Source of the DNA: Thermodesulfovibrionales bacterium
Lineage (GTDB): Bacteria; Nitrospirota; Thermodesulfovibrionia; Thermodesulfovibrionales; Dissulfurispiraceae
DNA: 38,559 nt
Assembly (NCBI GenBank): GCA_026415695.1
Contig: JAOAGP010000050.1
Coordinates: forward strand, 1-38,559
Direction of reading: 5' to 3'
In this document: piece after piece, positions 19,855 to 37,009 of the stretch
How positions within the stretch are numbered: position 1 is the first letter of the stretch
Layout: every line of letters begins with the position of its first letter
Translations under genes and position numbers: made by a program
The notes under the pieces: generated by a model
What the model was told of the DNA's origin: nothing
What the model saw: the letters and a program-made list of their open reading frames with translations, nothing else
Databases searched by the model: none

Positions 19855-19876
19855 AAGGACTTTACCTCCAAAGAAA

Positions 19877-19906
19877 AAGGGTTAGAATACTGTATTTCTA
19901 ACCCTT
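19877..19906 (-). terminator. Intrinsic terminator after rpmE
   Basis: An 11-base perfect stem (AAGGGTTAGAA at 19877-19887 and TTCTAACCCTT at 19896-19906) with an 8-base loop. On the minus strand it is followed by TTTTTCTTT. It lies between the rpmE stop and DUF1385, so it should attenuate read-through from rpmE into DUF1385-prfA-prmC. Confidence 0.75.
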
Positions 19907-19928
19907 ATAAGATGTATATTTTTTTTAT

Positions 19929-20129
19929 CTACTTTTTTGCGTATTTCTTCTTAAACTTATCTACCCTTCCCTCTGCATCCACTATCTTTTGCTTGCCTGT
20001 AAAAAATGGATGGCATTTTGAGCAGATATCTACATGTATCTTATCCTTGGTTGAACCAGTCGTAAAGGTCTCTCCACAGGCACACACAACCTTTACCTCT
20101 TTATATTTTGGGTGAATTCCTTCTTTCAC
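19929..20129 (-). CDS. rpmE: 50S ribosomal protein L31 (zinc form)
   Basis: 66-residue large-subunit protein. The GTG at 20129 is chosen because it has AAGGAGG at the right distance, and because the product then begins [13 protein letters not shown] like the family. A longer open frame upstream adds unrelated residues. Two zinc-binding pairs, CAC (residues 16 and 18) and CSKC (37 and 40), mark the C+ zinc-containing form. The 72-base gap to the plus-strand kinase gene is a divergent promoter region. Confidence 0.93.
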
Positions 20130-20139
20130 AAAATCCTCC

Positions 20140-20169
20140 TTGCATTTTTTATCTGATATTTTATATAAA
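20140..20169 (+). promoter_or_regulatory. Possible promoter of the GAF kinase operon in a divergent gap
   Basis: TTGCAT (20140-20145) and TATAAA (20164-20169) are 18 bases apart, about 33 bases before the kinase ATG. The same AT-rich stretch could hold the rpmE promoter on the other strand. Confidence 0.3.
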
Positions 20170-20201
20170 TAAGATTTACTTTGGCAAGGAGTTAAGAACC
20201 T

Positions 20202-21446
20202 ATGACAATACAAGAGCATGTTTACAATGTTGTAAAGATATTTACAGACGGTCATTTTTCATTAAAAGAAAGGCTGTCAAAACTCATTGATTACATATCC
20301 GGTCAATTTTCAATAAAAAGATGTTCTTTGATGTTGATTGACTCAAATGGGATAAACATTGAGGTTGCAGCCTCAACAAATCCAAATATTATAGGGATAA
20401 TGAGAAGGACATCAGATGTGTGTATTTCCACAATAGCACTTGTAGAGAAAAAGCCCTTATGGATTGACAAGGAGGCAAGGACATTCTTTAGGACACTTGA
20501 TAAATCAAAATACGAGTCAACATCATCCCTAACAATCCCACTAATGTTTGAAGAAAAGAGGATTGGGGTAATCAATCTAACGGATTTCGGGGACATTGAG
20601 GGTTTTTTAAAGAATCACATGGTCATCATTGAGGAAATATCTCCTATTGTTGCTGCATTTATCCACTCATACTCTGCCATTGTCAGTTGTCAGGAACTAA
20701 AAGAAAAACTTGATAACAAGGAAGGGCAACTTCTTGAAATAGATAAATTGAAAACTGACCTCATTAATTTTATTGTTCATGACCTAAAAACACCTATAAG
20801 TGTCATAATCGCAAATCTTGATATGCTCAATTATGAAAACTTAACTGATAGCCAATCAGAATTAGTAAATCTATGTATTGATGAGGCAGAAAACCTAAAG
20901 AGGATGGTTCTAAACATATTAGATATTCAAAAGTTAGAAGAGGCAAGGATAAGCATCTTAAGAGAAGAGGTTGATATATTTGAACTATTAAAAAACCAGA
21001 TTAGGTCTTTAGGTGGTTTGCTCAAAAGACGCAGAATAACAGTAGAACTAAACGGTGAGCCAACAACTTGTTACATAGATGAAAACCTCATCGGCAGGAC
21101 TATCACAAACATCCTGATAAATGCAATAGAACATAGCCCAGAGGACTCAAGGATTAAGGTTACACTGCAACACAATAAATACGAAAATAGCATTGTACTT
21201 AAGTTTGAAGATGAGGGAGGCGGCATTAAGGAGGATATGCTGGATAAGATTTTTGACAAATACTCACAAGTTCTTGATGATGTAAAAACATACATAAAGA
21301 CTTCAACAGGATTAGGACTTACTTTTTGTAGGCTCGTTGTAGAGGCTCATGGTGGCAGGATATGGGCTGAAAATACCAACAAGGGGGCATTATTTACCGT
21401 TGTATTGCCCCAAGACTTTAAAAAAATCATACCTGATTTAGGATAA
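20202..21446 (+). CDS. Cytoplasmic GAF-domain histidine kinase
   Basis: 414 residues, no membrane segments. Residues 20-160 form a GAF-like sensor ([32 protein letters not shown]). A short coiled coil leads to the H-box [13 protein letters not shown] with His193. The ATPase has [24 protein letters not shown] and STGLGLTF. The AAGGAG Shine-Dalgarno is 10 bases before the ATG. The response regulator begins 3 bases after its stop. GAF domains bind small ligands or cofactors; no conserved tetrapyrrole cysteine pattern is evident, so the ligand is unknown. Confidence 0.93.
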
Positions 21447-21449
21447 GTC

Positions 21450-22631
21450 ATGTCAGTACCACAAGAGTATCTTGATAATACGATTTTGATAGTAGATGAC
21501 GAGCTCAGCATGAGGGTTACTATAAACAACATGCTGTCTCGCATGGGGTTTAAGAATCTACATATGGCAGAAAACGGTAAAAGGGCGTTTGAGATCGTGC
21601 AGGCTCGTAAGATCGATTTAATCATTGCGGATATAAACATGCCAATTATGTCAGGCATAGAGTTGTTTAAGACCATAAAAGACAACAAAAACTATCAACA
21701 TATAAAGTTTATCTTTGTTACAGCAGAGGCGTCTCGTCAGATAGTGGCAAGGGCAGCAGAGGACGGCGGTGAGGCATACATCATAAAACCCTTTGTGATG
21801 GCAACTCTTGAGGAAAAGATAATCAAGGTGCTTGAGAAAAAATACAGACCAAATGAACTTGAAAAGATGATGAAGAATTATAATGAGTTTTTGGAAAAAA
21901 AAGATTATGATGCTGCAGAGAAGGAACTAAACAAGGTAAAGGAAATAGTTGGTGAGACAGCAAAGATACTTTTTAATATGGCAAAGTTACAGTATCATAA
22001 GGGAGATATCAACAAGGCAATTGAATTATACAAAGAGGCAATAAATAAGAATCCCATGTTTGTAAAGGCATACAATGCATTAGGCGAGATATACGAGAGC
22101 TTGGGGGATATCCAGTCTGCGATAAGGTATTATGAAATAGCACATGAGATAAGCCCAGCAAACACAGAAAGACTTATAACCCTTAGCAAACTCTTGCATA
22201 AAACAGGTGATACAGAAAAGGCTGCGAGTCTCTTAAAGGGTGCTATAATTGAGACTAGAGAAGATGTATCTACATCAGAGTATCTTTTAGGAGAGATATA
22301 CCTTTCACAAAACAAAAACGAATTAGCATTAGAGACATTTTTAAAGGCACATCGTAAAAATCCATCGGACATACATATAATGAAATCCCTTGCAGAGACA
22401 TACAGAAAGGTCGGCAAGACTGAACATGCACTTGATATCTATAATCGCATCTTAACGATTAGCAAGGAAAACGCAGATACATACTACGAGATGGGAAAGA
22501 CTTTTTTAGAGATGGGGCAGAAACAAAAGGCAATAGAGTGCATGAAAAAGGCTTGGGAACTAAATCCCTACAGTCAGCAAATCACCGCAGATCTACGAGC
22601 CCTTGCACGACAAGACAAATTTACTTTATAA
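21450..22631 (+). CDS. Response regulator with TPR output (REC-TPR)
   Basis: 393 residues. The receiver domain has VDDELSMR (acidic pair 16-17), phospho-acceptor Asp61 (ADINMPIMSG), Thr91 and Lys113 (IIKPF). From about residue 165 to the end there are at least five or six tetratricopeptide repeats, for example ILFNMAKLQYHKGDINKAIE and AYNALGEIYESLGDIQSAIR. No DNA-binding or enzymatic output exists, so signalling is probably by phosphorylation-controlled protein binding. It follows its kinase by 3 bases and precedes corA by 13 bases. Confidence 0.92.
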   Translation: MSVPQEYLDNTILIVDDELSMRVTINNMLSRMGFKNLHMAENGKRAFEIVQARKIDLIIADINMPIMSGIELFKTIKDNKNYQHIKFIFVTAEASRQIVARAAEDGGEAYIIKPFVMATLEEKIIKVLEKKYRPNELEKMMKNYNEFLEKKDYDAAEKELNKVKEIVGETAKILFNMAKLQYHKGDINKAIELYKEAINKNPMFVKAYNALGEIYESLGDIQSAIRYYEIAHEISPANTERLITLSKLLHKTGDTEKAASLLKGAIIETREDVSTSEYLLGEIYLSQNKNELALETFLKAHRKNPSDIHIMKSLAETYRKVGKTEHALDIYNRILTISKENADTYYEMGKTFLEMGQKQKAIECMKKAWELNPYSQQITADLRALARQDKFTL

Positions 22632-22644
22632 AAAGGAGATGGTC

Positions 22645-23643
22645 ATGGAAAACAACATTTACTCATACATTGAAGGGACTAAATTTAAGTGGTTCAATAT
22701 AGACACCCCTACCCAAGAGGTTCTTAATCAGTTGATAACGACCCATCAATTCAAATTTCATCCCCTTGATTTAGAAGACTGTCTTTCAAAGACACAACTG
22801 CCAAAGATAGACGAATACCAAGACTATCTATTCATAATACTTCACTTCCCGAGATATCTAAAAGACAAGAAGTTTTCTATTCCGATGCAGGTATCTATAT
22901 TTATCAGCAAGGAGTATTTTGTTACCATCCACACTGGAGAACTCAAGCCTATTAATCAATTCTTCAACATCTGTAAGGAATTGATTGAATCCCCTGACTC
23001 ACCTTCAGTTGATATACAAAAACTAAACCCAAAATCAAGGGCATATATTACACAAGATATGTCCACCCCTTTTTTACTATACCGTTTTATTTACACACTT
23101 GTTGACAATCTACTTAGAATGATGGGCAAGATCATGATTAATATTGAAAACATTGAGGAAAAGGTATTTGATGAAAAGATTGACGCAGTTAGGGAGGTAA
23201 CCCAATTAAGACACGATATTGCAAACTTAAGGAGGATAATAATGCCACTTAAGAGGGTTATCCATGAGTTGGAGATTAAGATAAAGAGATTTACAGATGA
23301 GGATATGTCGGTGTATTTTAGTGACCTGTCTGATACTATTGATAAGGTCTGGACGATACTTGATGAATGCAAAGAGACCATAGAGATTTATAAGGATTCC
23401 GACTTTGTAATCAGTTCAGATAGAACAAATAAGATACTCGCCCTACTTACCATAGTCTTTACCTACTCCATTCCAGCCACTGTAATAGGCACATTATATG
23501 GTATGAATATCCCTATGCCAGGCAACAATGAATTTAAATGGACATTTTTAGGTGATTATACCACCTTCTTTTTTGTCCTGTTCCTGTCAATATTCCCTGC
23601 TATAATGATGCACAGGATATTTAAGAGATTGAAGTGGTTATAG
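22645..23643 (+). CDS. corA: CorA-family divalent metal transporter
   Basis: 332 residues. Inner-membrane channel for Mg2+ (or Co2+/Ni2+). A large cytoplasmic N-terminal domain with a long helix leads to two C-terminal membrane segments; the first ends in the signature YGMN (GTLYGMNIPMPGNNEF), the selectivity loop of the family, and the last residues are basic (RIFKRLKWL). The ATG at 22645 is chosen because AAAAGGAG lies 7 bases upstream. A TTG at 22603 would overlap the previous gene and lacks a ribosome-binding site. The exact metal is not determined by sequence. Confidence 0.92.
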   Translation: MENNIYSYIEGTKFKWFNIDTPTQEVLNQLITTHQFKFHPLDLEDCLSKTQLPKIDEYQDYLFIILHFPRYLKDKKFSIPMQVSIFISKEYFVTIHTGELKPINQFFNICKELIESPDSPSVDIQKLNPKSRAYITQDMSTPFLLYRFIYTLVDNLLRMMGKIMINIENIEEKVFDEKIDAVREVTQLRHDIANLRRIIMPLKRVIHELEIKIKRFTDEDMSVYFSDLSDTIDKVWTILDECKETIEIYKDSDFVISSDRTNKILALLTIVFTYSIPATVIGTLYGMNIPMPGNNEFKWTFLGDYTTFFFVLFLSIFPAIMMHRIFKRLKWL

Positions 23644-23703
23644 GGAATTTCTTGATGCACTAACACTAAAATCTACTAAACATCTTGGATTTTAAATCCT
23701 TTG

Positions 23704-23733
23704 TTGATTAATTTTATTGTTGTCTGATAAAAT
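23704..23733 (+). promoter_or_regulatory. Sigma70-like promoter of rpsT
   Basis: TTGATT (23704-23709) and TAAAAT (23728-23733) with an 18-base spacer in the 137-base gap between corA and rpsT. Predicted leader about 40 bases, carrying the AGGAGG ribosome-binding site. Confidence 0.45.
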
Positions 23734-23780
23734 TTTTATCCTGTAATTTTGGATGATATTTTTACAATAGGAGGATTTGA

Positions 23781-24134
23781 TTGGCAACCAAGGCAACGAC
23801 AAGAAAAAAGAAAAAACTATCCGTTCTCAAGAGGGCAAGGCAGGCTAAAAAGAGGGAATTAAGAAACGACTCAATGAAGTCAAAGATAAAGACCGAGATT
23901 AAGAAATTAGAGGCACTTTATTCAGGTCAAGACAGAGAGGCTATTGAGAAACAGTTAAAATATGTGATTAAGACTATAACCAGTGCTGCATCAAAGGGAA
24001 TAATCCACAAGAATACAGCCTCACGAAAGGTTTCAAGGCTTACAATCAAGACTAACAAAGCACTTTCAGGGATGACGACTGTTTCTGAAAGTCAGCCTCA
24101 AAACACATCAGATAACCTTCAACAATCTCAGTAG
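23781..24134 (+). CDS. rpsT: 30S ribosomal protein S20, TTG start and C-terminal tail
   Basis: 16S rRNA-binding small-subunit protein. The basic helical core, KKKKLSVLKRARQAKKREL then SMKSKIKTEIKKLEAL, and the ending KGIIHKNTASRKVSRL are typical. The start is TTG, preceded by AGGAGG; E. coli rpsT also uses UUG, where it takes part in autogenous control, so similar regulation is possible here. At 117 residues it is longer than the usual 86-90, mainly because of a Ser/Gln/Asn-rich tail of about 22 residues. The last 27 bases overlap the end of holA on the opposite strand. Confidence 0.92.
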   Translation: MATKATTRKKKKLSVLKRARQAKKRELRNDSMKSKIKTEIKKLEALYSGQDREAIEKQLKYVIKTITSAASKGIIHKNTASRKVSRLTIKTNKALSGMTTVSESQPQNTSDNLQQSQ

Positions 24135-24986
24135 AGTCATTTCAATCACAGCAGGGGCTGATCTCTTGAGGAGACTATCAGCCTCATGAAGTATCTTGAG
24201 TGTTCGTTTAACCTTTTCAGGTTTGTCATGCCTTGACCTAAAGTTTAAATAATTGGTACAAATCGCCCCTAACAACAAGAAGTCTTCAACATTCTCTCCC
24301 ATCCTTTTATAAGTCAGGAAAGTGTCCCTTACTTTACCTGTAGATAAAACCGATGTTAGATTGAATGCCCCGTATGATACCCCTGCATATGTTAATTCGC
24401 TGATATCCTCAATATCAACGATTTCCTTGCCTAATGCATCAAACTTCATCGCCTCTGAATACAATAACCCCACATTATCACCAGTAGATTCGTGTAAAAA
24501 GTCTAATGCCTTTTTAGTGAGTGTAAAACCCCTCTGTTGTGTCTTTTTATTAATCCACGCATAGACCTCTTTTTGTGAAGGTGTAAGGTCTATCGTTGTA
24601 AGGGGCTTTATGTCAAAAGGATGGGTCTTTTTCTTGTCTGTCAAAAACACAAAAATAAGCAGTGTAGAAAATGGTGAAGGGTCTAAGCTGTATTTAGAGA
24701 TAAGGGTTATGTCCTTTTTTGATAGTCTTTCACCATGATTAATAATTACAAGTCTTTTGCTTGCCATAAAAGGCATCATGTTTAGCAAATCTATAAGATC
24801 CTTTGCAGAAATCTGCTCATCAGATGAGGCAAGATTGTATTCCTCAACTATACAATTGGTTAAAGTAAAGGTGTGTTTGATATCCTTGATGCATTCAGTA
24901 AGCAGAAACTCCTGCGTTGATTGTAGGCAATATATCTTTTCAGGGAAACCAGCCTGTAATTCTTTATCAAAATCCCTAATACTCAC
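24108..24986 (-). CDS. holA: DNA polymerase III delta subunit
   Basis: Clamp-loader subunit that opens the beta sliding clamp. 292 residues, a little short of the usual 320-340. The pattern is characteristic: N-terminal IYCLQSTQEFLLTECIKDI, a middle ending LLNMMPFMASKRLVIINHGERL, then STLLIFVF, and the helical C-terminal collar domain with LDFLHESTGDNVGLLYSEAMKF. Walker-type ATPase motifs are naturally degenerate in delta. It follows lptE by 12 bases, the common lptE-holA pairing, and converges with rpsT with a 27-base overlap. Confidence 0.9.
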   Translation of the reverse strand: MSIRDFDKELQAGFPEKIYCLQSTQEFLLTECIKDIKHTFTLTNCIVEEYNLASSDEQISAKDLIDLLNMMPFMASKRLVIINHGERLSKKDITLISKYSLDPSPFSTLLIFVFLTDKKKTHPFDIKPLTTIDLTPSQKEVYAWINKKTQQRGFTLTKKALDFLHESTGDNVGLLYSEAMKFDALGKEIVDIEDISELTYAGVSYGAFNLTSVLSTGKVRDTFLTYKRMGENVEDFLLLGAICTNYLNFRSRHDKPEKVKRTLKILHEADSLLKRSAPAVIEMTLLRLLKVI

Positions 24987-24998
24987 TTGAGCATCCCT

Positions 24999-25541
24999 TT
25001 AGTTAGTAGGAGAAAAATAAATAATGCCCTGAACTATCTCTTTTGATAATTCATCAAGAGCCTTTTGTGTGTAAATCTCTTTCTGGATCAAAACATTGGT
25101 CAATCTATCCTGTGTAGTAAACACCGTCATATATGGTTTGAATACCTTTATTGGATACCTTTTAAATGTTTCAGTATCAATAAGTGTAAAAGCCCCTCCA
25201 ATGTCAACCTCATACTCAACAGCAGTTAGACCAATCTCTGATAGTATTCTAAGATTAAACCTATTTATCTCACCTTCTAATCTGTAGCGTGCATTTTTTG
25301 AGACATCAAAACCATAAAGCATGAGTTGTTGATTTAATGATGATAGAAGTTTGTCTTGTAGTTTGGGCTCGTATGTCTTATTTGTGATATTACCGATAGT
25401 TATAGACTGAAATGGGATATCTTTACTGCCCTGAATGGTATAACCACATGAGTTTATAAGAGCAACATTCAACAAAAGTATGAAACAAAAGCATAATCTT
25501 GATGCTATTGAGATAAACCCTCTGAGTTTGTATATAGCCAT
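24999..25541 (-). CDS. lptE: LPS-assembly lipoprotein LptE
   Basis: Outer-membrane lipoprotein that plugs LptD and delivers lipopolysaccharide to the outer leaflet. 180 residues from the ATG at 25541. An N-terminal hydrophobic helix (about 17-30) ends in the lipobox LINSC with the lipidated Cys32. The mature part has CGYTIQG, then SITIGNITNKTYEPKLQDKLLSSL, the LptE/LPS-export pattern. A GTG four codons upstream is an alternative start; GTGGGGA before the ATG is a modest ribosome-binding site. Family assignment also rests on the conserved leuS-lptE-holA order. Confidence 0.85.
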   Translation of the reverse strand: MAIYKLRGFISIASRLCFCFILLLNVALINSCGYTIQGSKDIPFQSITIGNITNKTYEPKLQDKLLSSLNQQLMLYGFDVSKNARYRLEGEINRFNLRILSEIGLTAVEYEVDIGGAFTLIDTETFKRYPIKVFKPYMTVFTTQDRLTNVLIQKEIYTQKALDELSKEIVQGIIYFSPTN

Positions 25542-25677
25542 TAGTCCCCACACAACGCCACTTATTAGAATTTTAATTTAAAAGGGTTATTAGCCCGTCC
25601 TTACACTGCCTTTTTGCATAAGAAAGACAATATCAACACATTGCAGAAATCAACAATGTAACATCAAACTGACTATC

Positions 25678-28254
25678 CTATACCACCACATTGACAAGCC
25701 TTCCACCTACAATGATGGTCTTTCTTACAGTCTTACCTGATATAAATTTCAAGACATTTGGATTGTTAATCGCCAATTCCTTTATCTTATCATCAGGAGT
25801 ATTGGCTGGTATCATTATCTTTGCCCTTAACTTACCATTTACCTGTATTACTAACTCAACCTCATCCTCTAATGTAAGAGCCTCATCCCATGTTGGCCAA
25901 GGTGATAAAGATACAGATCTCTGTTCTCCCATCTGATGCCATAACTCCTCGGATATATGTGGTGCAAATGGTGAGAGCAGCAGGATTAGGTTTTTTAGAC
26001 AGGTCTCTATTGTGTTATAAGTTTTTTTATCATTTGGTTCAACTGACGACAAAAGGTTCACAAACTCCATCATTGCAGATATCGCGGTGTTGAAATGAAA
26101 GTCCCTTTCAATGTCCGTTGTCACCTTCTTGATGCACTGATGCATCTTTCTTATGAGTTCTGTATCAATATCGTTTGTGATATCTGAATCCTTCATTTCT
26201 TGTTTACTCATCTTATACCTATAGACAAGCACCCAAACCTTGTTAAGAAACCTAAAGGCACCTTCTACACCTTGCTGAGACCACTCCAAATCCTTTTCTG
26301 GTGGCGCTGCAAAAAGGGAGAACAACCTAATGGTATCAGCCCCGTATTTATCTAATAGATCGTTTGGGTCAACCACATTCTTTTTAGACTTTGACATCTT
26401 CTCAACCCTGCCTCTTATAGCCTCCTGCCCACAATGAATGCATCTACCATCCTTTACCTCTTCAGGAAAAAGCCATTCATGTGTCTTGCAACTAAAGGTC
26501 TCTTTACATACCATGCCCTGTGTGAGAAGATTGGTAAACGGTTCAGAAAAATTGATAAGTCCCATGTCTCTTAGACATCTACTGAAAAACCTTGAATACA
26601 AGAGGTGCAAAACTGCATGTTCAATACCACCTATGTATTGGTCAACAGGCAACCAAAACGAGATGTCATCTGATGCCTGTTTAAATACAGACTCAAAATC
26701 ACACCCCTTGAAGTCTTTTTGAGCAATATCAAGATATGGCTTGGTGTGTGCCTCTTTCAGACAATAGGCTATGAAATACCAAGACGAGTCAACAAATGTG
26801 TCCATCGTATCTGTCTCTCTTTTAGCATCACTACCACATCTTGGGCATTTTACATTTATAAAATCATGTGCGTCTTTTAAAGGAGAACCTCCCATCCCAG
26901 TAAACTCTACATCCTCAGGCAGGAGCACAGGAAGTTGTTTGTAAGGAACGGGGACTATCCCACATTTTGGACAGTAAATTATTGGTATTGGAGTGCCCCA
27001 ATATCTCTGTCTTGATATCCCCCAGTCTCTGAGTTTATAGTTTATCCTCTTCTGACCAAGCCCTTTTTCTTCAATGAATTTGATTATTGCATCCCTTGCT
27101 TCTTGACCCATTAAACCACTAAAAATCCCAGAATCTACCAAAAATCCATCATCCTCATAGGCCTCATTTAATGGGGTTATCTGACTGTCAAGATTAGGCA
27201 CTATCACCACCTTAATTGGCAAACCATACTTCTTTGCAAAATCAAAGTCCCTTTGGTCGTGTGCTGGCACTGACATGATAGCCCCTGTGCCATATTCCAT
27301 TAAGACAAAGTTCGCAACATAAACCGGAACCTTCTCATCATTGAGAGGATTTATAGCATAATGCCCTGTAAATAAACCAACCTTTTCATCCTCTTTACCA
27401 TAATGTTGTTTTATGTTGTTGAGAGATTCCTTGTCTGTTACCAGTTCCTCTGCCAAAGGATGTGTAGGTGCTATGCACATAAATGTCACGCCAAAAAGTG
27501 TATCAGGTCTTGTAGTAAATATCCTCAATCTCTTTGTGCTGCCTGCTATTGCAAAATCAACCTCTACCCCTACACTCTTTCCAATCCAATTCCTCTGCAT
27601 TGTCACAACCCGTTCTGGCCACCCTTTAAGCGTATCACATCCTTCAAGGAGTTCTTCAGCATATTTAGTAATCCTTAAAAACCATTGCTCAAGTTCCTTT
27701 TGTATGACCTTACTATTGCACCTCCAACAACCACCATCAACCACCTGCTCATTTGCAAGCACAGTTGAGCACTCCTCACACCAATTCACAAAGGATTTTT
27801 TCCTGTAGGCAATCCCCATCTCATAAAGTTTTAGAAAGAACCACTGATTCCAACGGTAATACTCTGGATTACAGGTCGTCACCTCAACATCCCAGTCGTA
27901 ACTAATCCCAAGCCTTATGAGTTGAGATTTCATAAAGTTGATGTTTTCCTTTGTCCATTTATGTGGATGCACCTTGTTTTTTATTGCAGCGTTTTCTGCA
28001 GGCATCCCAAAGGCATCCCACCCCATAGGGTGTAAGACATCGTAACCATTCATAGACTTGTATCTTGCAACTACATCACCTATGGCATAATTTCTTACAT
28101 GCCCCATGTGTATCTTGCCTGACGGATAGGGAAACATCTCAAGGCAGTAAAACTTCTTTTTCCCTTTTTCTGATGGCGTTTTGTGTATGTTATTATCCTG
28201 CCAATACTGTTGCCATTTAGGTTCTATCTCCTTCTGGTCATATCTTTCTTTCAA
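25678..28254 (-). CDS. leuS: Leucyl-tRNA synthetase
   Basis: Class I synthetase charging tRNA-Leu. 858 residues, full length. The HIGH motif appears as HMGH (residues 49-52) within PYPSGKIHMGHVRNY, and the KMSKS motif as KMSKSKKNV at about residue 620. The CP1 editing domain is intact, with FTTRPDTLFGVTF as the threonine-rich site that clears mischarged amino acids. A Cys4-type zinc module (CEECSTVL ... CWRCNSKV) lies near residues 159-179. The stop falls 136 bases before lptE. The upstream gene lolA ends 14 bases before the leuS ATG, so they are probably one transcript. Confidence 0.97.
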   Translation of the reverse strand: MKERYDQKEIEPKWQQYWQDNNIHKTPSEKGKKKFYCLEMFPYPSGKIHMGHVRNYAIGDVVARYKSMNGYDVLHPMGWDAFGMPAENAAIKNKVHPHKWTKENINFMKSQLIRLGISYDWDVEVTTCNPEYYRWNQWFFLKLYEMGIAYRKKSFVNWCEECSTVLANEQVVDGGCWRCNSKVIQKELEQWFLRITKYAEELLEGCDTLKGWPERVVTMQRNWIGKSVGVEVDFAIAGSTKRLRIFTTRPDTLFGVTFMCIAPTHPLAEELVTDKESLNNIKQHYGKEDEKVGLFTGHYAINPLNDEKVPVYVANFVLMEYGTGAIMSVPAHDQRDFDFAKKYGLPIKVVIVPNLDSQITPLNEAYEDDGFLVDSGIFSGLMGQEARDAIIKFIEEKGLGQKRINYKLRDWGISRQRYWGTPIPIIYCPKCGIVPVPYKQLPVLLPEDVEFTGMGGSPLKDAHDFINVKCPRCGSDAKRETDTMDTFVDSSWYFIAYCLKEAHTKPYLDIAQKDFKGCDFESVFKQASDDISFWLPVDQYIGGIEHAVLHLLYSRFFSRCLRDMGLINFSEPFTNLLTQGMVCKETFSCKTHEWLFPEEVKDGRCIHCGQEAIRGRVEKMSKSKKNVVDPNDLLDKYGADTIRLFSLFAAPPEKDLEWSQQGVEGAFRFLNKVWVLVYRYKMSKQEMKDSDITNDIDTELIRKMHQCIKKVTTDIERDFHFNTAISAMMEFVNLLSSVEPNDKKTYNTIETCLKNLILLLSPFAPHISEELWHQMGEQRSVSLSPWPTWDEALTLEDEVELVIQVNGKLRAKIMIPANTPDDKIKELAINNPNVLKFISGKTVRKTIIVGGRLVNVVV

Positions 28255-28268
28255 ATCGTAACCCCCTG

Positions 28269-28877
28269 CTATTGTAAGATTGTAATACCATGTGGTGCAA
28301 CGAAATTAAAAATCTTGCTGTCAATTTCCTTGTTTACAACAATATCTCTAAACACCACATCTATTTTATTGCCAACCTTGTCTGTCATTGAAATGCTCTC
28401 AATCGGGAATTCTTTATCCTCATTAATGGATATGTCAACATTTAATATCTGTCCCATACCTTTTAAGGGTGTGAGTGACAGCCTCTTTTCAGAAATCTTT
28501 TTGATGTTGAAGTCTGACTTTATATCAGTTAAACCACTAATTAAGGCTATTGGAGTCTGCCCATATTTTGTCTCATCAAAAGGTGTTTTGTAAGCCGTTT
28601 TTTCAGCTGGTTTGTAGATTATCATCTCATTGTTGTTGATATAGATAAGATGAGGTTTTTCGCCTTGATACCTGATGTGAAGACTGCCTTTTTTCATATA
28701 AAACCTGCCATTGTATGTCATAGTCTTTTTTAATTCTTTTATAGTAGATTTTTGTATGAAGTTTCCTTGGATTGTCTGTAATGATTTGTAAAAGTCGTTG
28801 ATGATGCTAACAGGGTCTGTTGCCTCAATCTCTGATGTAAATGTAAGTAACAATAAAACAACAATTATTAATCTCAT
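28269..28877 (-). CDS. lolA: Outer-membrane lipoprotein carrier LolA
   Basis: Periplasmic chaperone that ferries lipoproteins from the LolCDE complex to the outer membrane. 202 residues. A signal peptide (residues 1-19, RLIIVVLLLLTFTSEIEA) precedes the open beta-barrel domain. LolA-type features are LQTIQGNFIQKSTIKEL at the mature N-terminus and GRFYMKKGSLHIRYQGEKPHLIYI (about 57-80), which forms the first strands. AAGGAAGG precedes the ATG. It is the first gene of lolA-leuS-lptE-holA, and with lptE it gives this operon an outer-membrane theme. Confidence 0.88.
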   Translation of the reverse strand: MRLIIVVLLLLTFTSEIEATDPVSIINDFYKSLQTIQGNFIQKSTIKELKKTMTYNGRFYMKKGSLHIRYQGEKPHLIYINNNEMIIYKPAEKTAYKTPFDETKYGQTPIALISGLTDIKSDFNIKKISEKRLSLTPLKGMGQILNVDISINEDKEFPIESISMTDKVGNKIDVVFRDIVVNKEIDSKIFNFVAPHGITILQ

Positions 28878-29043
28878 AAACCTTCCTTATAAAAACTTGG
28901 GGGTTATATGTTATCACAAAAAGGGTATCTATTTACTAATCTTGAGATGGATAGCCCTTAAGAAATCTTCAAAGTATTAGTGATATATACGAGGAAACTC
29001 TGTTTTTTTGACTTGCTTGATATTTTATAAATAGTTAGATACC

Positions 29044-29072
29044 TTGCCACACCATTTGGTATGCTGTAAAAT
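29044..29072 (+). promoter_or_regulatory. Promoter-like pair directly before the small membrane-protein frame
   Basis: TTGCCA (29044-29049) and TAAAAT (29067-29072) with a 17-base spacer. The expected start of transcription, 6-8 bases further on, falls on the ATG at 29079, so the message would be leaderless. Confidence 0.4.
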
Positions 29073-29078
29073 ATCAAA

Positions 29079-29279
29079 ATGAAAAAGGGAATAAAAAATA
29101 TTGCAAAAGGTGTTTGTTTTATCATCCTTCTTATTGTAATTGTGACTATGGTCATGTATCTTTGTCTTGTAAAACAGTCAATAATTGCAAGCTTATTGGT
29201 CTTATCTGTTTTTTTAGGATTAATCATCCTTGTCCCTCTTAACCTCTTGAGTTCATTATTTAGGCATATCAGTCGGTAG
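29079..29279 (+). CDS. Possible small two-span membrane protein (leaderless?)
   Basis: 66 residues beginning with a basic head (KKGIKNIAKG), then two hydrophobic helices, about residues 11-31 (FIILLIVIVTMVMYL) and 34-58 (IIASLLVLSVFLGLIILV), and a short basic tail FRHISR. Charge placement fits a positive-inside hairpin. There is no ribosome-binding site, but a good promoter pair ends just 6 bases upstream. No family is recognised. An overlapping minus-strand frame covers the same DNA and is less convincing. Coding status is uncertain. Confidence 0.4.
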   Translation: MKKGIKNIAKGVCFIILLIVIVTMVMYLCLVKQSIIASLLVLSVFLGLIILVPLNLLSSLFRHISR

Positions 29280-29442
29280 TTATCCATTACAAATTATCAC
29301 GCCAGTAATAAAGGTTCATAGGCTACAGACTATAGGAATGAGGTTCTGAATCTTTTATTTTACCTGCTTTACCCTTTACCTTTATCCTTAAGCCCACTTT
29401 ACAATGAGGTCTTAATCCCTATCTTTAGGTTAAAATATAAGG

Positions 29443-32208
29443 ATGTCCACAAAAGAGCTCATCATTGAAGGGGCAAGACAGAATAACCTCAAAAATATCT
29501 CCCTCTGTCTGCCACACAATCAACTGATAGTTATAACAGGTTTGTCAGGCTCTGGGAAATCCTCCCTTGCCTTTGACACAATCTTTGCAGAAGGACAATG
29601 GAGATTCATTGAATCACTGTCAACATATGCAAGGGTATTTATAGATAAGGTCAACAGACCTGATGTTGATAAGATACTCAATATTCGTCCCACGATTGCC
29701 TTACAACAACACAATCCTATAAAAACATCCCGTTCAACCGTCGGCACCCTCACTGAATTGTATGATCTCTTGAGGGTATTATTTGCCCATATCTCAACAC
29801 CCTTTTGTTATAACTGTGGCAGGGAGGTAAGACGATGGAATCCATCAGATATCTCTGACTATCTTTTGCAGTCTTTTAAGGATAAAAAGGCTATAATCTA
29901 TGCAGAAACACATTCAACAAAAGACAACCTCATCATGAGGGGTTTTCAGAGGGTGCTTATAAATGACGAGATACATGACTTAGCAGACATTAATGAAGAT
30001 GCCTCATCAAGATTCACCGTAGTTATAGACAGATTAATAATACAACCCGAAGACAGACTAAATGATTCCATCCGAATAGCATGGAAGGAGGGACAGGAAC
30101 GATTAGGCGTGATGGTTTTGTCTGAAAATGATGAAAAACAACATCTCGTGTTTTCATCAAAATTGATGTGTGATTACTGCAATATTAGATTAAACCAACC
30201 GACCGCCGAGATTTTCTCGTTTAATCATCCTGCCCACGCATGCCCTACCTGTAAGGGTTTTGGAAATATCCTCACCTATAAAGAAGACACAATAATCCCT
30301 GACCCAAATCTATCACTTTTTGACGGTGCAATCGCAATCCTTGAAAGAGATGGACTTTCATGGTGGAGGCAACAATTAATCAAGGGCGCAGAGTTAAGCG
30401 GGGTTGATATCAACATACCATATAAAGACTTGCCAGATGAGCATAAAAGGTTGATATTTGATGGCAATGAACACTTCTACGGCATAAATGCCCTGTTTAA
30501 GGAATTGGAGGAAAAGAGGTATAAGATACATGTGAGGGTATTCTTAAATAAATTTAGGTCAACTGTTATTTGCCCCGAGTGTAAAGGCAAAAGATTAATA
30601 AAAGGCTCTCTGTCATATAAGATTGATGGTAAGGATATAGCAGATATCGTAGATATGTCTATCTCTCAGATAAAGATGTGGATTGAGGGTTTGGCTCTTA
30701 CAACCTTTGAGAGAGACTCTGTAAAAGAGGCACTAAACCAGATAATCCTGAAGCTCAACTTTCTTGATATGGTAGGTCTTGGTTATCTTTCCCTATCAAG
30801 ACCGTCTAAAACACTCTCTGGTGGGGAGTATCAAAGACTCAACCTCTGTAACCAACTTTCAGGTAAACTCACTGGGACACTATATGTCCTTGATGAACCA
30901 ACCATAGGGCTTCATCCTAAAGACACAGACAGGATTATTGGTATCATTAAAGAGTTAGTGTCTTTTGGCAATACTGCAATTGTGGTAGAGCACGACAGGG
31001 ATGTCATATCATCATCTGACTATATCGTTGAAATGGGGCCCGGTGGTGGTTTAAATGGTGGAGAGGTGGTATTTTCAGGCAGATACGAGGATTTTGTCCG
31101 TTCAGATACACTGACTGCAAGGTATATCAACAATAACATTGATGATGAGTGTTTTATACAAAAAATCGATAAAAAAACACCATCAAGGCAGTCTATTGTC
31201 CTTGAAGACGCATGTGGTAATAATCTAAAGCATGTAGATATTTCAATCCCATTAGGACAACTAACCGTGGTCACAGGGGTATCAGGGTCAGGAAAGAGCA
31301 GTCTTATTGTTGAGACCTTATATTGTGCATTAGGGAATCATTTTAAAACTGAAACAACACCACCTCTACCTTTTAGAAGGCTATCAGGCAAATCTCACAT
31401 AAGGGGCGTGAAATTGATTGACCAATCTCCAATTGGACGGTCTCCAAGGTCAAATCCCGCAACCTACATTGGTTTCTTTGATGGGATTAGGAGGGTCTTT
31501 AGTCAAGAAGCAAGGTATAAATACAAAGGCATTGATCCAAGATATTTTTCCTTCAATGTGCCGGGAGGTAGATGTGAGACATGCAAGGGAGAGGGATTTC
31601 AAAAGGTTGAGATGTACTTCTTTGAGGATATTTATGTTAGATGTGAAGCATGTGGTGGAAGTAGATACAAACAGGAGATACTAAATGTCAGATATAAGGG
31701 AAAAAACATACATGATGTCTTAAACATGACTGTATCAGAGGCGATAACCCTTTTTGATGAAAACAGGGAAATCACAGATAAATTGCGATTGCTTGATGAC
31801 ATGGGTCTTGGATATTTGAGATTAGGGCAACCCGCAAATACTCTCTCTGGGGGAGAGGCACAGAGATTAAAGATATGTGCAGAACTCATCACAACCATCA
31901 ACAAAGACCCAAGGACAACTAACAAAGGGATACTATACATACTTGATGAACCAACGGTAGGACTACATTACTGCGATGTGACAAAACTCATGCATGTCAT
32001 CTTTAGGCTACTTCAAAAAAACAACACAGTTGTAATCATTGAACATAATCTTGATGTGATATCTGTTGCAGACTACATAATTGACCTCGGTCCTGAAGGA
32101 GGGGATAAAGGAGGAAGGGTAGTCTTTCAGGGGAATCCCTCAGACATAATAAAAGCAAAGGACTCTGTAACAGGACAGTATCTTTTTAACTACTTCAACA
32201 AGCAGTAA
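29443..32208 (+). CDS. uvrA: Excinuclease ABC subunit A (UvrA-like, somewhat divergent)
   Basis: DNA-damage recognition ATPase of nucleotide excision repair. 921 residues with two ABC ATPase halves. The first Walker A is GLSGSGKS (33-40) and the first signature TLSGGEYQR. The second Walker A is GVSGSGKS and the second signature TLSGGEAQR, followed by LYILDEPTVGLH. Zinc-binding cysteines are present (CDYC/CPTC in the first half; CETC and CEAC in the second). The segment RPTIALQQHNPIKTSRSTVGT differs from the common SPAISIDQK version, so it may be a paralogue class. If so, a canonical uvrA should exist elsewhere. It converges on the glycosyltransferase gene with a 3-base gap. Confidence 0.85.
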   Translation: MSTKELIIEGARQNNLKNISLCLPHNQLIVITGLSGSGKSSLAFDTIFAEGQWRFIESLSTYARVFIDKVNRPDVDKILNIRPTIALQQHNPIKTSRSTVGTLTELYDLLRVLFAHISTPFCYNCGREVRRWNPSDISDYLLQSFKDKKAIIYAETHSTKDNLIMRGFQRVLINDEIHDLADINEDASSRFTVVIDRLIIQPEDRLNDSIRIAWKEGQERLGVMVLSENDEKQHLVFSSKLMCDYCNIRLNQPTAEIFSFNHPAHACPTCKGFGNILTYKEDTIIPDPNLSLFDGAIAILERDGLSWWRQQLIKGAELSGVDINIPYKDLPDEHKRLIFDGNEHFYGINALFKELEEKRYKIHVRVFLNKFRSTVICPECKGKRLIKGSLSYKIDGKDIADIVDMSISQIKMWIEGLALTTFERDSVKEALNQIILKLNFLDMVGLGYLSLSRPSKTLSGGEYQRLNLCNQLSGKLTGTLYVLDEPTIGLHPKDTDRIIGIIKELVSFGNTAIVVEHDRDVISSSDYIVEMGPGGGLNGGEVVFSGRYEDFVRSDTLTARYINNNIDDECFIQKIDKKTPSRQSIVLEDACGNNLKHVDISIPLGQLTVVTGVSGSGKSSLIVETLYCALGNHFKTETTPPLPFRRLSGKSHIRGVKLIDQSPIGRSPRSNPATYIGFFDGIRRVFSQEARYKYKGIDPRYFSFNVPGGRCETCKGEGFQKVEMYFFEDIYVRCEACGGSRYKQEILNVRYKGKNIHDVLNMTVSEAITLFDENREITDKLRLLDDMGLGYLRLGQPANTLSGGEAQRLKICAELITTINKDPRTTNKGILYILDEPTVGLHYCDVTKLMHVIFRLLQKNNTVVIIEHNLDVISVADYIIDLGPEGGDKGGRVVFQGNPSDIIKAKDSVTGQYLFNYFNKQ

Positions 32209-32211
32209 AGG

Positions 32212-33612
32212 CTATAAGGCATACCTTTTATCCTCTAAAATCTTCTCCAAACTGCCTTTAATCCGTTTTACAACTCCATCCCAAATGCCAAATGTATCCT
32301 GTCTAAAGATAGTCATTGTTGGATACCATGGGCTATCGCTTCTATTGAGCATCCATCTCCAGTCAGAACTATAATGGAGCATAAGCCACACTGGTTTACC
32401 TAATGCACCGGCAAGATGTGCAACTGCTGTGTCCACAGTTATTACTAAATCAAGATTTGATATTAGTCCTGCAGTATGTGCAAAATCCTTTAAACTACCC
32501 GACATGTTTATAATCCTGATGTTATCAGGTAAGGACTTTAACTCCTCTGGATTGTATTCCTTTTGCAATGAATAGAATACCGCCCCTTCAGTCTTAAGAA
32601 TAGGCAGTAGATGAATTAGATGACAACTCCGATATCTACCACGAATGTTTGTCTTGCTGCCAGACCATGCAATACCAACCTTGAGTCTATTTTCTTTTCT
32701 CAACTCCCTAAAGCATTCCTGATAAACCGATTTAACAGTCAGATATTTGCTATATGAGGGTATTGTATGAATATCTGTTTTTAATACATAAGGGATATCT
32801 AAAAGGTGGATGCTGTAGTCAAAAAAAACATCATCAGGTTTTGTATCATAAACGGCTTCTAATCCCAATTGCCCTTCAAAAAGGGGTTTTAACGAATTAG
32901 GGCATTGCAAAGAGACCATCAAACCCATTTGTCTTAATATCTGGGCATATCTTATAGCCTGAAGCGTATCACCAAAACCTTGTTCTGAAATCAATAATAG
33001 CCTATAACTACCCTTTTGCCCACGCCAGAAGTTTTTAGGTCTTTGGATGTTTTTAAAATTAGGGGTTTTCCATCTCCACATGTAATAACTCCAACCAATA
33101 TCAAAATCACCTTTAAGAAGATACAAGAGTCCAAGATTGTATCTTGCCTCTGCATGTTTTGGTGATATCTCAATTGCCTTTTTATAAAAATCTTGTGCCT
33201 CGTCTAAATTTAACAGTTCCCTGTGGATAACACCTAAATTTAGATAAATATCAGGATCAGAGGGGTTTAATGCCAATGACTTCTCAAGAAGTTGTAATGC
33301 CTCGTTGTGCCTTTGCTGATACTTAAGACAAACCGCAAGGTTTACAAGTATATCAGTATCATCTGATGATTTGATAAGGGCACTATTAAGGAGGTTTTCA
33401 GCATCTTGTAGTTCACCTAACTCCATAAGTGCTATTGATAGATTCACAGCAACATCTACACTATACCTCATTGAAAGGGCAGTCAAAAGGTAGGGTTTTG
33501 CAAACTTATATTGACCTAAACGGAGATAAGTTGTGCCTAAATTGTAGTAATGGTTTGGATCTGCTATGTGTTGTGATGTGATAGAATCTTTTAAACCGTT
33601 TTCAGACCCCAG
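32212..33612 (-). CDS. TPR-glycosyltransferase, probable CTG start overlapping flaF
   Basis: About 466 residues if started at CTG 33612. The N-terminal part holds four or five tetratricopeptide repeats (for example VNLAVCLKYQQRHNEALQLL and YLNLGVIHRELLNLDEAQDF). The C-terminal half is a GT-B glycosyltransferase-like domain with LLLISEQGFGDTLQAIRYA, RLKVGIAWSGS and the donor-side DLVITVDTAVAHLAGALGKP, as in TPR-linked GT9/GT41-like enzymes. A TPR also lies upstream of the first ordinary starts (TTG 33486, ATG 33471), from 33487 to about 33550, so these would cut a repeat. No ATG, GTG or TTG occurs earlier in frame. CTG 33612 has GAGGGG 5 bases upstream and overlaps the flaF stop. A frameshift is the alternative. 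Pairing with FlaF suggests flagellin glycosylation. Confidence 0.75.
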   Translation of the reverse strand: MGSENGLKDSITSQHIADPNHYYNLGTTYLRLGQYKFAKPYLLTALSMRYSVDVAVNLSIALMELGELQDAENLLNSALIKSSDDTDILVNLAVCLKYQQRHNEALQLLEKSLALNPSDPDIYLNLGVIHRELLNLDEAQDFYKKAIEISPKHAEARYNLGLLYLLKGDFDIGWSYYMWRWKTPNFKNIQRPKNFWRGQKGSYRLLLISEQGFGDTLQAIRYAQILRQMGLMVSLQCPNSLKPLFEGQLGLEAVYDTKPDDVFFDYSIHLLDIPYVLKTDIHTIPSYSKYLTVKSVYQECFRELRKENRLKVGIAWSGSKTNIRGRYRSCHLIHLLPILKTEGAVFYSLQKEYNPEELKSLPDNIRIINMSGSLKDFAHTAGLISNLDLVITVDTAVAHLAGALGKPVWLMLHYSSDWRWMLNRSDSPWYPTMTIFRQDTFGIWDGVVKRIKGSLEKILEDKRYAL

Positions 33613-33979
33613 TTGAGCCCCTCAAACCTGCTGCAATGTTGATATTGATGTTAATCAAGATATCAAGTTTCTCTGGAGATGGAAAGGCAAGAACCTCTAT
33701 ACTTCTTTTGTCTATGAAAACACTGAGACTTAATAAGTTCTCCCTTACCTCTTTGGGTAACGGATTATCTGGATTTGACAGTTCTGTTTGAAATACAGTC
33801 CATACAGTTTGATTAAACTTGATAGCATCAGCAAGCATCTGATGGAGGTTTGATGCATTCCAATTGTTTTGACATTCTTTTAAGAGCATGGCTGCCTTTT
33901 GCAATACAGATGCCTCAAGATCTCTGCCTGATAATGTGGTTTGCTCAACCTTTTTATATGCATCAATTGGTCTATTCAT
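33602..33979 (-). CDS. flaF: FlaF-family flagellin chaperone/regulator
   Basis: 125 residues. The pattern LHQMLADAIKFNQTVWTVFQ, then LSNPDNPLPKEVRENLLSLSVFIDK, matches FlaF, best known in alphaproteobacteria. There it works with FlbT in flagellin synthesis and, as shown in Caulobacter, binds flagellin for export. No Shine-Dalgarno is visible before the ATG at 33979. The following glycosyltransferase begins inside its end (the CTG start overlaps the stop region). hisC lies 51 bases upstream. A flagellin gene is not in the window. FlaF outside alphaproteobacteria is less usual. Confidence 0.8.
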   Translation of the reverse strand: MNRPIDAYKKVEQTTLSGRDLEASVLQKAAMLLKECQNNWNASNLHQMLADAIKFNQTVWTVFQTELSNPDNPLPKEVRENLLSLSVFIDKRSIEVLAFPSPEKLDILINININIAAGLRGSTGV

Positions 33980-34030
33980 GAATTTAATTTTATAACTTAA
34001 TTTCTGGTTTTGTCCATTTGTATTAGAATG

Positions 34031-35089
34031 CTACCTATTGAGAATGTCCTTCAAGGCATCTATTAAGATCTCCATTTCATCCATCTTGCCTACTGTAATC
34101 CTTATGTGATTATCAATCCTTGGTCTCTTAAAATATCTAACGAGTATCTTCCTCTGCCTCAAGGCATCGCAGATAGTTTGTGCATTTAAAGCATCATGGG
34201 AGACAAACAAAAAGTTACTCATAGATTTGGTCACTGAAAAACCTAATCTCAGAAGTTTTTCATATGCCCATTGTCTTGTTGAGATTATCTTTTGCCTCGT
34301 TGTCTCAAAATATTCTCTGTCCTTAATAGATGCCTCTGCACCTGCAAGGGCGAGCCTGTCAAGTGGATATGAATTAAAAGAGTCCTTTACCCTCATCAAA
34401 CCTTCTATAAGTGCCACATCCCCGATAGCAAAACCTACCCTCAAACCTGCAAGAGAGCGGGACTTTGAGAATGTCTGAATTACGAGCAGATTATCATATT
34501 TATCAATTAGACCAACAGCACTTTCACCACCAAAATCAATATAGGCTTCATCAATGATGACTACATTATCTTGATTTGTTGAAACTATCCTTTCTATTTC
34601 CTCATGGGTTAGCAAGATACCAGTAGGGGCATTTGGATTTGCAATTATAACCCCACCAATATTTTTGCAGTAAGATTGCACATCAATGCAAAAATCCTCC
34701 ATCAAAGGAATCACTATCGCATCAACACCAAAAAGATGACTGTAAACCTCATAAAAGGTATATGTTATGTCAGGGAATAAGACCTTTCTGCCCCCCATAA
34801 AAAAAGCCATAAAAGAAAGGGCAAGTATCTCATCAGAACCATTGCCGACAAACACATTATTATGGCTAACACCGTAGTATTCACCTATTGCCTTTCTTAA
34901 GGCATATCCTTCAGGGTCAGGATATTTTCTAATGTCATTAAGTGCTTCTTTAATGGCTTGTAACACAGTGGGTGACGGGGGATAAGGGTTTTCATTGGTA
35001 TTTAGTTTGATGAAATCTAAACCCTTGGGTTGTTCGCCCGGGACATACGGATGAATAGTCCTTACAATCGGACTCCAATAGTTACTCAT
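34031..35089 (-). CDS. hisC: Histidinol-phosphate aminotransferase
   Basis: PLP enzyme converting imidazole-acetol phosphate to histidinol phosphate in histidine synthesis. 352 residues. Class I/II aminotransferase features are visible: KLNTNENPYPPSPTV at the N-terminus, GSDEILALSFMAF, the NPNAPTG segment, DEAYIDFGG, and the PLP-binding lysine in FSKSRSLAGLRVG. The related tyrosine/phenylalanine activity cannot be excluded. Its ATG is adjacent to the ffh stop (no gap), so it is translationally coupled to ffh. Confidence 0.93.
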   Translation of the reverse strand: MSNYWSPIVRTIHPYVPGEQPKGLDFIKLNTNENPYPPSPTVLQAIKEALNDIRKYPDPEGYALRKAIGEYYGVSHNNVFVGNGSDEILALSFMAFFMGGRKVLFPDITYTFYEVYSHLFGVDAIVIPLMEDFCIDVQSYCKNIGGVIIANPNAPTGILLTHEEIERIVSTNQDNVVIIDEAYIDFGGESAVGLIDKYDNLLVIQTFSKSRSLAGLRVGFAIGDVALIEGLMRVKDSFNSYPLDRLALAGAEASIKDREYFETTRQKIISTRQWAYEKLLRLGFSVTKSMSNFLFVSHDALNAQTICDALRQRKILVRYFKRPRIDNHIRITVGKMDEMEILIDALKDILNR

Positions 35090-36421
35090 CTACTGAAAGA
35101 ACGAAAAGTCCTTTGGTAATCTAAAACCTTTCTTGCCACCCTTAAACATCTTTAGCATCTTCTTCATCTCAAGATACTGCTTCATCAACCTATTTATATC
35201 TGCAACCGATGTTCCACTTCCCATGGCAATCCTACGCCTTCTACTGCCATTGAGGATGTTTGGATTTGCCCTTTCTTGTTTTGTCATGGAGTTTATAATC
35301 GCCTCAATCTTTACGAATTCCTTTTCATCCACCTTTACATCCTTTATAGCCTTATTCATTCCCGGTATCATACTTAAAAGGCTTTCAATAGTCCCCATGC
35401 TTCTTATCTTCTTAAGCTGGTCTCTTAAATCCTCAAAGGTAAACTCCTCTTCTATGAGTTTTTTCTGGAGTTTTTCTGCCTCCTTTGCATCAAATGATTG
35501 TTGTGCCTTTTCAATGAGGGTTAAAACATCACCCATACCAAGTATTCGGGTAGCAATCCTATCAGGATAAAACTGCTCAAGGGCATCAATCTTTTCACCA
35601 ACACCGATGTATTTTATTGGCTTACCAGTAACATGCCTTATAGATAATGCGGCTCCCCCTCTGGCATCACCATCCATCTTTGTTAGGATGATACCATCAA
35701 TACCTATCCTTTCATTAAAGGTCTTAGCCATGTTTACAGCGTCTTGTCCTGTCATAGCATCGGCTACAAGAAGCACCTCATGTGGCTTAACACTGTCTTT
35801 AATCCTCTGAAGCTGGTTCATCAGATCTTCATCAATGTGTAGTCTTCCAGCAGTATCAATAATAACTATATCCCTGCCGTCAATCTTTGCCTGCTTGAGA
35901 GCCTCTGTGCTAAGAAACACTGGGTCTTTCGTGTCTTTGTTAGAAAACACGGGGATATCAAGTTGTTTGCCCAAGGTTATAAGTTGGTCAATAGCTGCCG
36001 GTCTCTGTAAGTCCGCAGCAACAAGCAGAGGTCTCCTGCCTTCTTTCCTAAAAATACGGGCTAATTTTGCAGAGGTGGTTGTTTTACCCGACCCTTGAAG
36101 CCCTGTCATCATAATCACTGTTGGAGGATTAGCAGCAAGTTGAATGCGTGAACTCTGCCCCCCTAATGTTTCGCACAAGGTATCATGGACTATCTTTATG
36201 ACCTGTTGACCGGGAGATAGGCTTTCTAATACTTCTTTGCCAATTGCCCTTTGCCTAACCTGTTCAATAAACTCTTTGACTACCTTGTAATTAACATCAG
36301 CCTCAAGAAGGGCAAGCCTTATTTCTTTTAGGGCAACATCTACATCCTCTTCCTTGAGAAAGCCTCTGCTTTTGAGTTTATTAAATATTGATTCAAGTTT
36401 TTCAGAAAGACTGTCAAACAT
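35090..36421 (-). CDS. ffh: Signal recognition particle protein Ffh
   Basis: GTPase of the signal recognition particle that targets membrane proteins to FtsY and the translocon. 443 residues. The N domain is helical, and the G domain has GLQGSGKTTTSAKLA (P-loop), DTAGRLHIDEDL and TKMDGDARGGAALS. The methionine-rich M domain that binds 4.5S RNA and signal peptides includes SLLSMIPGMNKAI, RRRRIAMGSGTSV and LEMKKMLKMF. trxA ends 1 base before its ATG and hisC follows without a gap. Confidence 0.97.
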   Translation of the reverse strand: MFDSLSEKLESIFNKLKSRGFLKEEDVDVALKEIRLALLEADVNYKVVKEFIEQVRQRAIGKEVLESLSPGQQVIKIVHDTLCETLGGQSSRIQLAANPPTVIMMTGLQGSGKTTTSAKLARIFRKEGRRPLLVAADLQRPAAIDQLITLGKQLDIPVFSNKDTKDPVFLSTEALKQAKIDGRDIVIIDTAGRLHIDEDLMNQLQRIKDSVKPHEVLLVADAMTGQDAVNMAKTFNERIGIDGIILTKMDGDARGGAALSIRHVTGKPIKYIGVGEKIDALEQFYPDRIATRILGMGDVLTLIEKAQQSFDAKEAEKLQKKLIEEEFTFEDLRDQLKKIRSMGTIESLLSMIPGMNKAIKDVKVDEKEFVKIEAIINSMTKQERANPNILNGSRRRRIAMGSGTSVADINRLMKQYLEMKKMLKMFKGGKKGFRLPKDFSFFQ

Positions 36422-36422
36422 A

Positions 36423-36752
36423 CTAACCTAATAAAGAATCTATCTTGCTTTTTAATTGAGATTTTGGAACGGCACCGACAATCTTATCAACCTCTTTGCC
36501 ATCCTTAAAAAAGATAATTGTTGGAATGCCCATTATCTTATACCTTGATGCCACATCGTTATTTTCATCCGTGTTTAACTTGCCAATCTTTACCTTACCG
36601 GCATACTCTTTTGCAAGTTCCTCAATAGTAGGTGCTATTATCTTACAAGGTCCGCACCATGCAGCCCAGAAATCAACGACTGTTAATCCCTTTGAGCCAA
36701 TTACCTCTGTCTCCCAATTACTTGAATTAAATTCAAATACACCTTCTGCCAT
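36423..36752 (-). CDS. trxA: Thioredoxin
   Basis: Small dithiol-disulfide reductant. 109 residues, standard length. The redox motif WCGPCK lies at residues 32-37 and the cis-proline loop is GIPTIIFF. AGGAGG is positioned before the ATG. It is the first gene of the trxA-ffh-hisC-flaF-glycosyltransferase run, and has a promoter candidate about 58 bases upstream. Confidence 0.96.
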   Translation of the reverse strand: MAEGVFEFNSSNWETEVIGSKGLTVVDFWAAWCGPCKIIAPTIEELAKEYAGKVKIGKLNTDENNDVASRYKIMGIPTIIFFKDGKEVDKIVGAVPKSQLKSKIDSLLG

Positions 36753-36839: not shown

Positions 36840-36889
36840 ACCAATAAAAATTGACCAACTACAATTGACTTAAGATTATCCAGATTTGG

Positions 36890-36919
36890 TTGAAAAGACA
36901 TCCTTTTAAGTGTTATTAT
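36890..36919 (+). promoter_or_regulatory. Promoter candidate of tRNA-Leu
   Basis: TTGAAA (36890-36895) and TATTAT (36914-36919) with an 18-base spacer; the expected start of transcription is 1-2 bases before the mature tRNA 5' end. Confidence 0.4.
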
Positions 36920-36927
36920 TAACATCA

Positions 36928-37009
36928 GCCGAAGTGGTGGAATTGGTAGACACGCACGTTTGAGGGGCGTGTGGGGAGACCTGTGCGGCTTCGAGTCCCG
37001 CATTCGGCA
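36928..37009 (+). tRNA. tRNA-Leu(GAG) with unusual T-arm and acceptor
   Basis: 82 bases including the discriminator A at 37009. Acceptor strand GCCGAAG (1-7), D-arm with GGTAGA, anticodon stem CACGT/GCGTG around loop TTGAGGG with anticodon GAG (Leu CUC/CUU), a long variable arm as in leucine tRNAs, and T-loop TTCGAGT. Two departures are visible. The base before TTC (position 53) is C and opposes C61, breaking the nearly invariant G53-C61 pair. Position 7 G faces A66. The 3' CCA is not encoded. Otherwise the cloverleaf is sound. Either a real variant, a decaying copy or a sequencing error. Confidence 0.85.

Follow-up and report, generated by a model that had tools for sequence, protein, structure and literature searches.

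A tRNA-Leu(GAG) gene with two broken pairs and its intact near-twin in a Thermodesulfovibrionales draft genome

What becomes of a leucine tRNA gene in which the pair that closes the T loop is broken? The question is raised by a tRNA-Leu(GAG) gene near the end of contig C95 of a Thermodesulfovibrionales draft genome, the contig that supplies the 38,559-nucleotide stretch of DNA analysed here (the window). An earlier note on this DNA left the choice between a functional variant, a decaying tRNA and a sequencing error; decay fits best, and each of the other two is given a lower probability.

The gene, its two mismatches and their rarity

The only ARAGORN call in the window is tRNA-Leu(gag), with exactly the bounds given in Table 1. 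Aligned to the tRNA family model RF00005 over all of its positions (1-71 of 71), the gene scores 37.8 bits in Infernal against a gathering score of 29, and two pairs are marked as non-standard, 7-66 and 53-61. Reading the stems by hand gives the same result: the T stem GCGGC/CCCGC sets C53 opposite C61 and the acceptor stem GCCGAAG/ATTCGGC sets G7 opposite A66. The earlier note had read both mismatches from the letters and proposed an Infernal score as a check, and both are borne out. The gene thus reaches the gathering score of RF00005 over the whole model and lacks two features of the family, the T-loop-closing G53-C61 pair and the complete set of seven acceptor-stem pairs. A scan of the whole window at the gathering threshold returned no RF00005 match, which is ascribed to the speed filters. 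The GAG anticodon, the long variable arm and A73, by which it qualifies as a tRNA-Leu(GAG), are common to 28 aligned genes of this type (the copy on a second contig of the same draft, C93, and 27 genes from relatives, two of them from the genus mate G001).

Table 1. Features around the tRNA-Leu(GAG) gene, in window coordinates
Feature	Position	Strand	Basis or remark
trxA (thioredoxin, PF00085)	36423..36752	-	within the segment present twice in the draft
sigma-70-like promoter site, TTGAAA-18-TATTAT	36890..36919	+	10/12 consensus bases
tRNA-Leu(GAG), 82 nt, without encoded CCA	36928..37009	+	ARAGORN, Infernal RF00005, alignment with the C93 copy and relatives
C at tRNA position 53	36989	+	G in the C93 copy and in 27 aligned genes of relatives
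A at tRNA position 66	37002	+	C in the C93 copy and in 27 aligned genes of relatives
FliK-like gene, truncated by the contig end	37195..38559	+	PF02120 match below the Pfam cut-off; protein 79% identical to the C93 copy

The claim that G53-C61 is almost invariant agrees with everything that was compared. The draft (2.2 Mb in 123 contigs, 99.71% complete, 0.61% contamination) yields 41 ARAGORN calls, one tRNA-Asp being counted twice through a contig overlap, and G and C close the T loop in 40 of them, the exception being the window gene, which is also the weakest of 41 tRNA-model matches in the draft (the next scores 50.8 bits). Because the doubled tRNA-Asp(GTC) falls where the end of C117 and the start of C120 overlap exactly over 141 nt, it is most likely one gene seen twice. 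Positions 53 and 66 are invariant in the 28 aligned Leu(GAG) genes, from which the window gene is excluded. A lineage model derived from these 28 gives 98.1 bits for the window gene and 104.1-114.6 bits for 16 other Leu(GAG) genes, 13 of the 16 having also been used to build the model. In PMC7912444 the strict conservation of G53-C61 is ascribed to the stacking of U54-A58 on the pair and to a contact of C61. PMC6418473 adds that the pair is required by TrmFO; no TrmFO match above the cut-off was found in the window's own genome (68.8 of 428.65 bits), so no argument is drawn from U54 methylation.

When 229 genomes of the class were searched for the core of Leu(GAG), the pattern requiring G53 matched in 151 and its counterpart allowing A, C or T there matched in one, the window's own, which matches both; 78 genomes match neither and are uninformative. 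Of the other 228, 150 carry the G53 form and none the non-G53 form. The earlier note held that the same C53 in many functional relatives would tell against its concern, and nothing of the kind was seen. A conserved lineage-specific variant is rejected on these counts together with the invariance of both positions in the alignment. A pattern scan of wider bacterial contigs for the same variant gave three matches, none of them in a tRNA, a weak result from a pattern that fixed one T-stem sequence, ran without a G53 positive control and was applied to contigs from which near relatives may be absent.

An intact copy in the same neighbourhood on a second contig

A second tRNA-Leu(GAG) gene is present in the same draft at C93:370-451, scoring 52.9 bits with both pairs intact. 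It is identical to the window gene at 80 of 82 bases, and the two differences, G versus C at position 53 and C versus A at position 66, are precisely the two pair-breaking bases. The leucine tRNA listing that the earlier note had suggested thus turns up an intact gene able, by its anticodon, to read CUU and CUC, two codons that together account for 418 of 1039 leucine codons across the 26 genes counted on C95 and for 247 of 558 across 16 genes on C93. The draft also has genes for Leu(UAG) and Leu(CAG). Those for tRNA-Ile, Leu(UAA) and Ala(UGC) are absent among the 41 ARAGORN calls at the draft's matched places and may sit in unbinned contigs such as rRNA operons.

The likeness extends to the surroundings, since the order trxA, tRNA, FliK-like gene is common to both loci. 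The name FliK-like is tentative because the PF02120 match of the window copy falls short of the cut-off and the C93 copy (C93:746-2203) has no Pfam match at all. From trxA through the tRNA the two loci are 84.8% identical in DNA over a 453-base match, and on the FliK-like side 78.1% over 1408 bases. The coding DNA of trxA is 87.5% identical over 64 codons (dS 0.97, dN 0.013), while the protein, of which C93 carries 64 residues, is 98% identical over that length; for the FliK-like gene dS is 1.1 and dN 0.13 over 454 codons. Had the tRNAs diverged neutrally by an assumed 20%, as few as two changes in 82 bases would be very improbable (binomial, 2.6e-6), and the damage therefore looks recent. By the same reckoning selection probably acted on both tRNA copies during most of the time since they separated; gene conversion between the copies could instead account for the low divergence.

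The FliK-like protein was matched in 37 of 59 relatives searched, at a single place in each (38 of 60 including the window's own genome). Within the stretches examined, tRNA-Leu(GAG) lies beside neither trxA nor the FliK-like gene in the genus mates G001 and G002, the FliK-like gene of G002 being near a contig start with its upstream side unseen, and ancestral gene order is accordingly of no use here. G001 itself carries two tRNA-Leu(GAG) genes (on its contigs C17 and C61), identical over their 82 nt, at different loci and both intact; multiple copies of the gene thus occur in the genus.

The earlier note also credited the window gene with a good promoter. A promoter-like site is indeed present, while its statistical support is weak, three sites of such quality being observed in the stretch versus 1.4 (sd 1.2) in shuffles. 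The two copies share all 36 bases at 36881-36916, including the -35 hexamer, and have -10 hexamers that are one base apart (36917). Because the promoter site is kept, the window tRNA may be transcribed.

Damaged spare or working variant

The window gene is probably, if with no more than moderate confidence, a recently damaged spare copy of an ordinary tRNA-Leu(GAG) gene, with little or no decoding role, whose work is done by the copy on C93. On this explanation the gene would be one of two copies of a tRNA-Leu(GAG) locus (trxA, tRNA, FliK-like gene), and divergence would have affected the flanks while leaving both tRNAs almost as they were. Later the window copy would have acquired the changes G53 to C and C66 to A, and with them lost the pair that closes the T stem and the final pair of the acceptor stem. 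Its transcript would be expected to fold and be processed poorly, because U54-A58 has no G53-C61 pair left to stack on and the contacts of the elbow with G18 and G19 become weaker. Such a copy would add little or nothing to decoding, and the intact C93 copy would read CUU and CUC. We infer the loss of function, its timing and the presence of both copies in one cell. The earlier note had imagined decay with the codons passing to another isoacceptor; decay is upheld, whereas the likely substitute is a second intact Leu(GAG) gene and not an isoacceptor.

As in a pseudogene, the changes relative to an intact parent copy disrupt the structure: both differences break pairs. The intact copy is in the same bin, on a different contig. 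The predicted T-stem pair probabilities fall from about 0.31 in the intact gene to 0.02 in the window copy, under an energy model that leaves out tertiary contacts and modifications and does not favour the cloverleaf even for the intact copy. The breakage of two pairs fits relaxed selection, to judge from simulation, in which two pairs are lost in 15% of cases when the intact gene is given two substitutions at random; given that frequency and the retained promoter site, decay is not proven by the pattern alone.

Whether both copies belong to one chromosome bears directly on the matter, as a damaged tRNA is easier to accept with a spare in the same cell. The end of C95 falls 75 nt short of the position at which the C93 FliK-like gene has its stop codon, and C93 opens within trxA, about 138 nt from that gene's 3' end; the segment present twice therefore overlaps end to end. 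Elsewhere in the bin there is no exact match to the final 200 bases of C95. A tandem duplication and a close relative binned together with the C93 organism are about equally likely sources of this arrangement, and if C95 is such a relative's contig, that organism's own intact Leu(GAG) copy has not been seen.

The second of these sources leads to the strongest alternative, which we hold to be unlikely yet well worth weighing: C95 comes from the co-binned relative, and C53 and A66 mark a working variant that is the only Leu(GAG) tRNA there, perhaps aided by CUN reading through Leu(UAG). A segment seen twice, at the end of one contig and the start of the other, is what a co-binned relative would leave. 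In line with it are the FliK-like proteins, which share 79% identity with each other and 58% and 51% with those of genus mates, and a synonymous divergence of about 1, resembling that between two species, though TrxA is nearly identical. A working variant also accords with the codon counts, since with CUU and CUC so frequent among C95 leucine codons the loss of the tRNA would be costly, and with the presence of the Leu(UAG) and Leu(CAG) genes. Set against this, in a bin-wide comparison of pieces holding 182 of the 246 contig ends, C93 and C95 form the only diverged end-to-end overlap longer than 1 kb, compared with 15 exact 141-nt overlaps, which suggest a k=141 graph assembly; the remaining diverged matches are internal or shorter than 530 nt. 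The starts of C5 and C98 share a diverged overlap of about 0.3 kb with end-to-end geometry, in opposite orientation and 74-82% similar, which looks like a repeat array. Among the 40 of 70 or 78 candidates scored in each search, C93:2210-15000 and window positions 16541-36540 matched other parts of the bin over short stretches only, at 69-93% identity. A single qualifying overlap argues against widespread mixing of the bin, though it leaves room for one foreign contig. The two contigs cannot be told apart by base composition (mean GC3 0.365 in 26 picked genes of C95 versus 0.370 in 16 of C93; Mann-Whitney P 0.60). Against the working variant itself stands the class survey, in which no informative genome besides the window's own shows a non-G53 form.

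Less likely still is an error of sequencing or assembly at one or both bases. The contig belongs to a draft in 123 pieces with exact 141-nt end overlaps, and the tRNA lies 1.5 kb from its end, circumstances in which errors might be looked for. The neighbouring genes, on the other hand, are open and conserved, TrxA as noted above and the FliK-like frame open up to the contig end, and two independent substitution errors within 82 bases would be improbable at usual consensus error rates.

That the gene specifies a working leucine tRNA which dispenses with G53-C61, through a shifted T stem or other elbow contacts, and is the sole reader of CUU and CUC strikes us as very improbable. The particular form in which U48 pairs with A66, giving a T stem from 48-66 to 52-62 and a six-pair acceptor stem in a reshaped tRNA, is the least probable of the readings: U48 and A66 are complementary, so that A66 would add an outer pair while C53 surrenders the old inner one, but the predicted probability of the 48-66 pair is 0.016 (in an energy model without tertiary contacts) and none of the 28 aligned Leu(GAG) genes shows such pairing. 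A T stem shifted in this way would cost the usual 15-48 contact.

A mobile-element origin is unsupported, no integrase-like frame being noticed by eye among the window's open reading frames of at least 80 aa. One frame elsewhere in the window (11119-11445, minus strand) encodes 108 residues with a signal-like start followed by long alanine-lysine-glutamate repeats.

Relation to known tRNA genes

If the gene is a damaged spare, its main value is as a warning that a tRNA inventory of a draft genome may list a broken spare among the working genes, and that a single broken pair on one contig gives no evidence for a new tRNA architecture. Should the variant work after all, it would provide a test of how strictly G53-C61 is needed. 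The literature on bacterial tRNA decay and pseudo-tRNAs, in the part available to us, held nothing that bears directly on this case.

With an ordinary bacterial tRNA-Leu(GAG) (RF00005) the window gene has in common 80 of the 82 bases of the C93 copy, the anticodon, the long variable arm, A73 and a promoter site, and it departs from one in C53 facing C61 and G7 facing A66. A second point of comparison is tRNAOther of Bacillus cereus, which is presented in PMC3399842 as a tRNA-like gene thought to stand outside translation, beside an ordinary tRNA set, a position similar to that proposed for the window gene. tRNAOther flanks a genomic island, whereas visual inspection of the window's reading frames brought no integrase to notice; and the window gene has an obvious parent from which it is set apart by damage to two bases.
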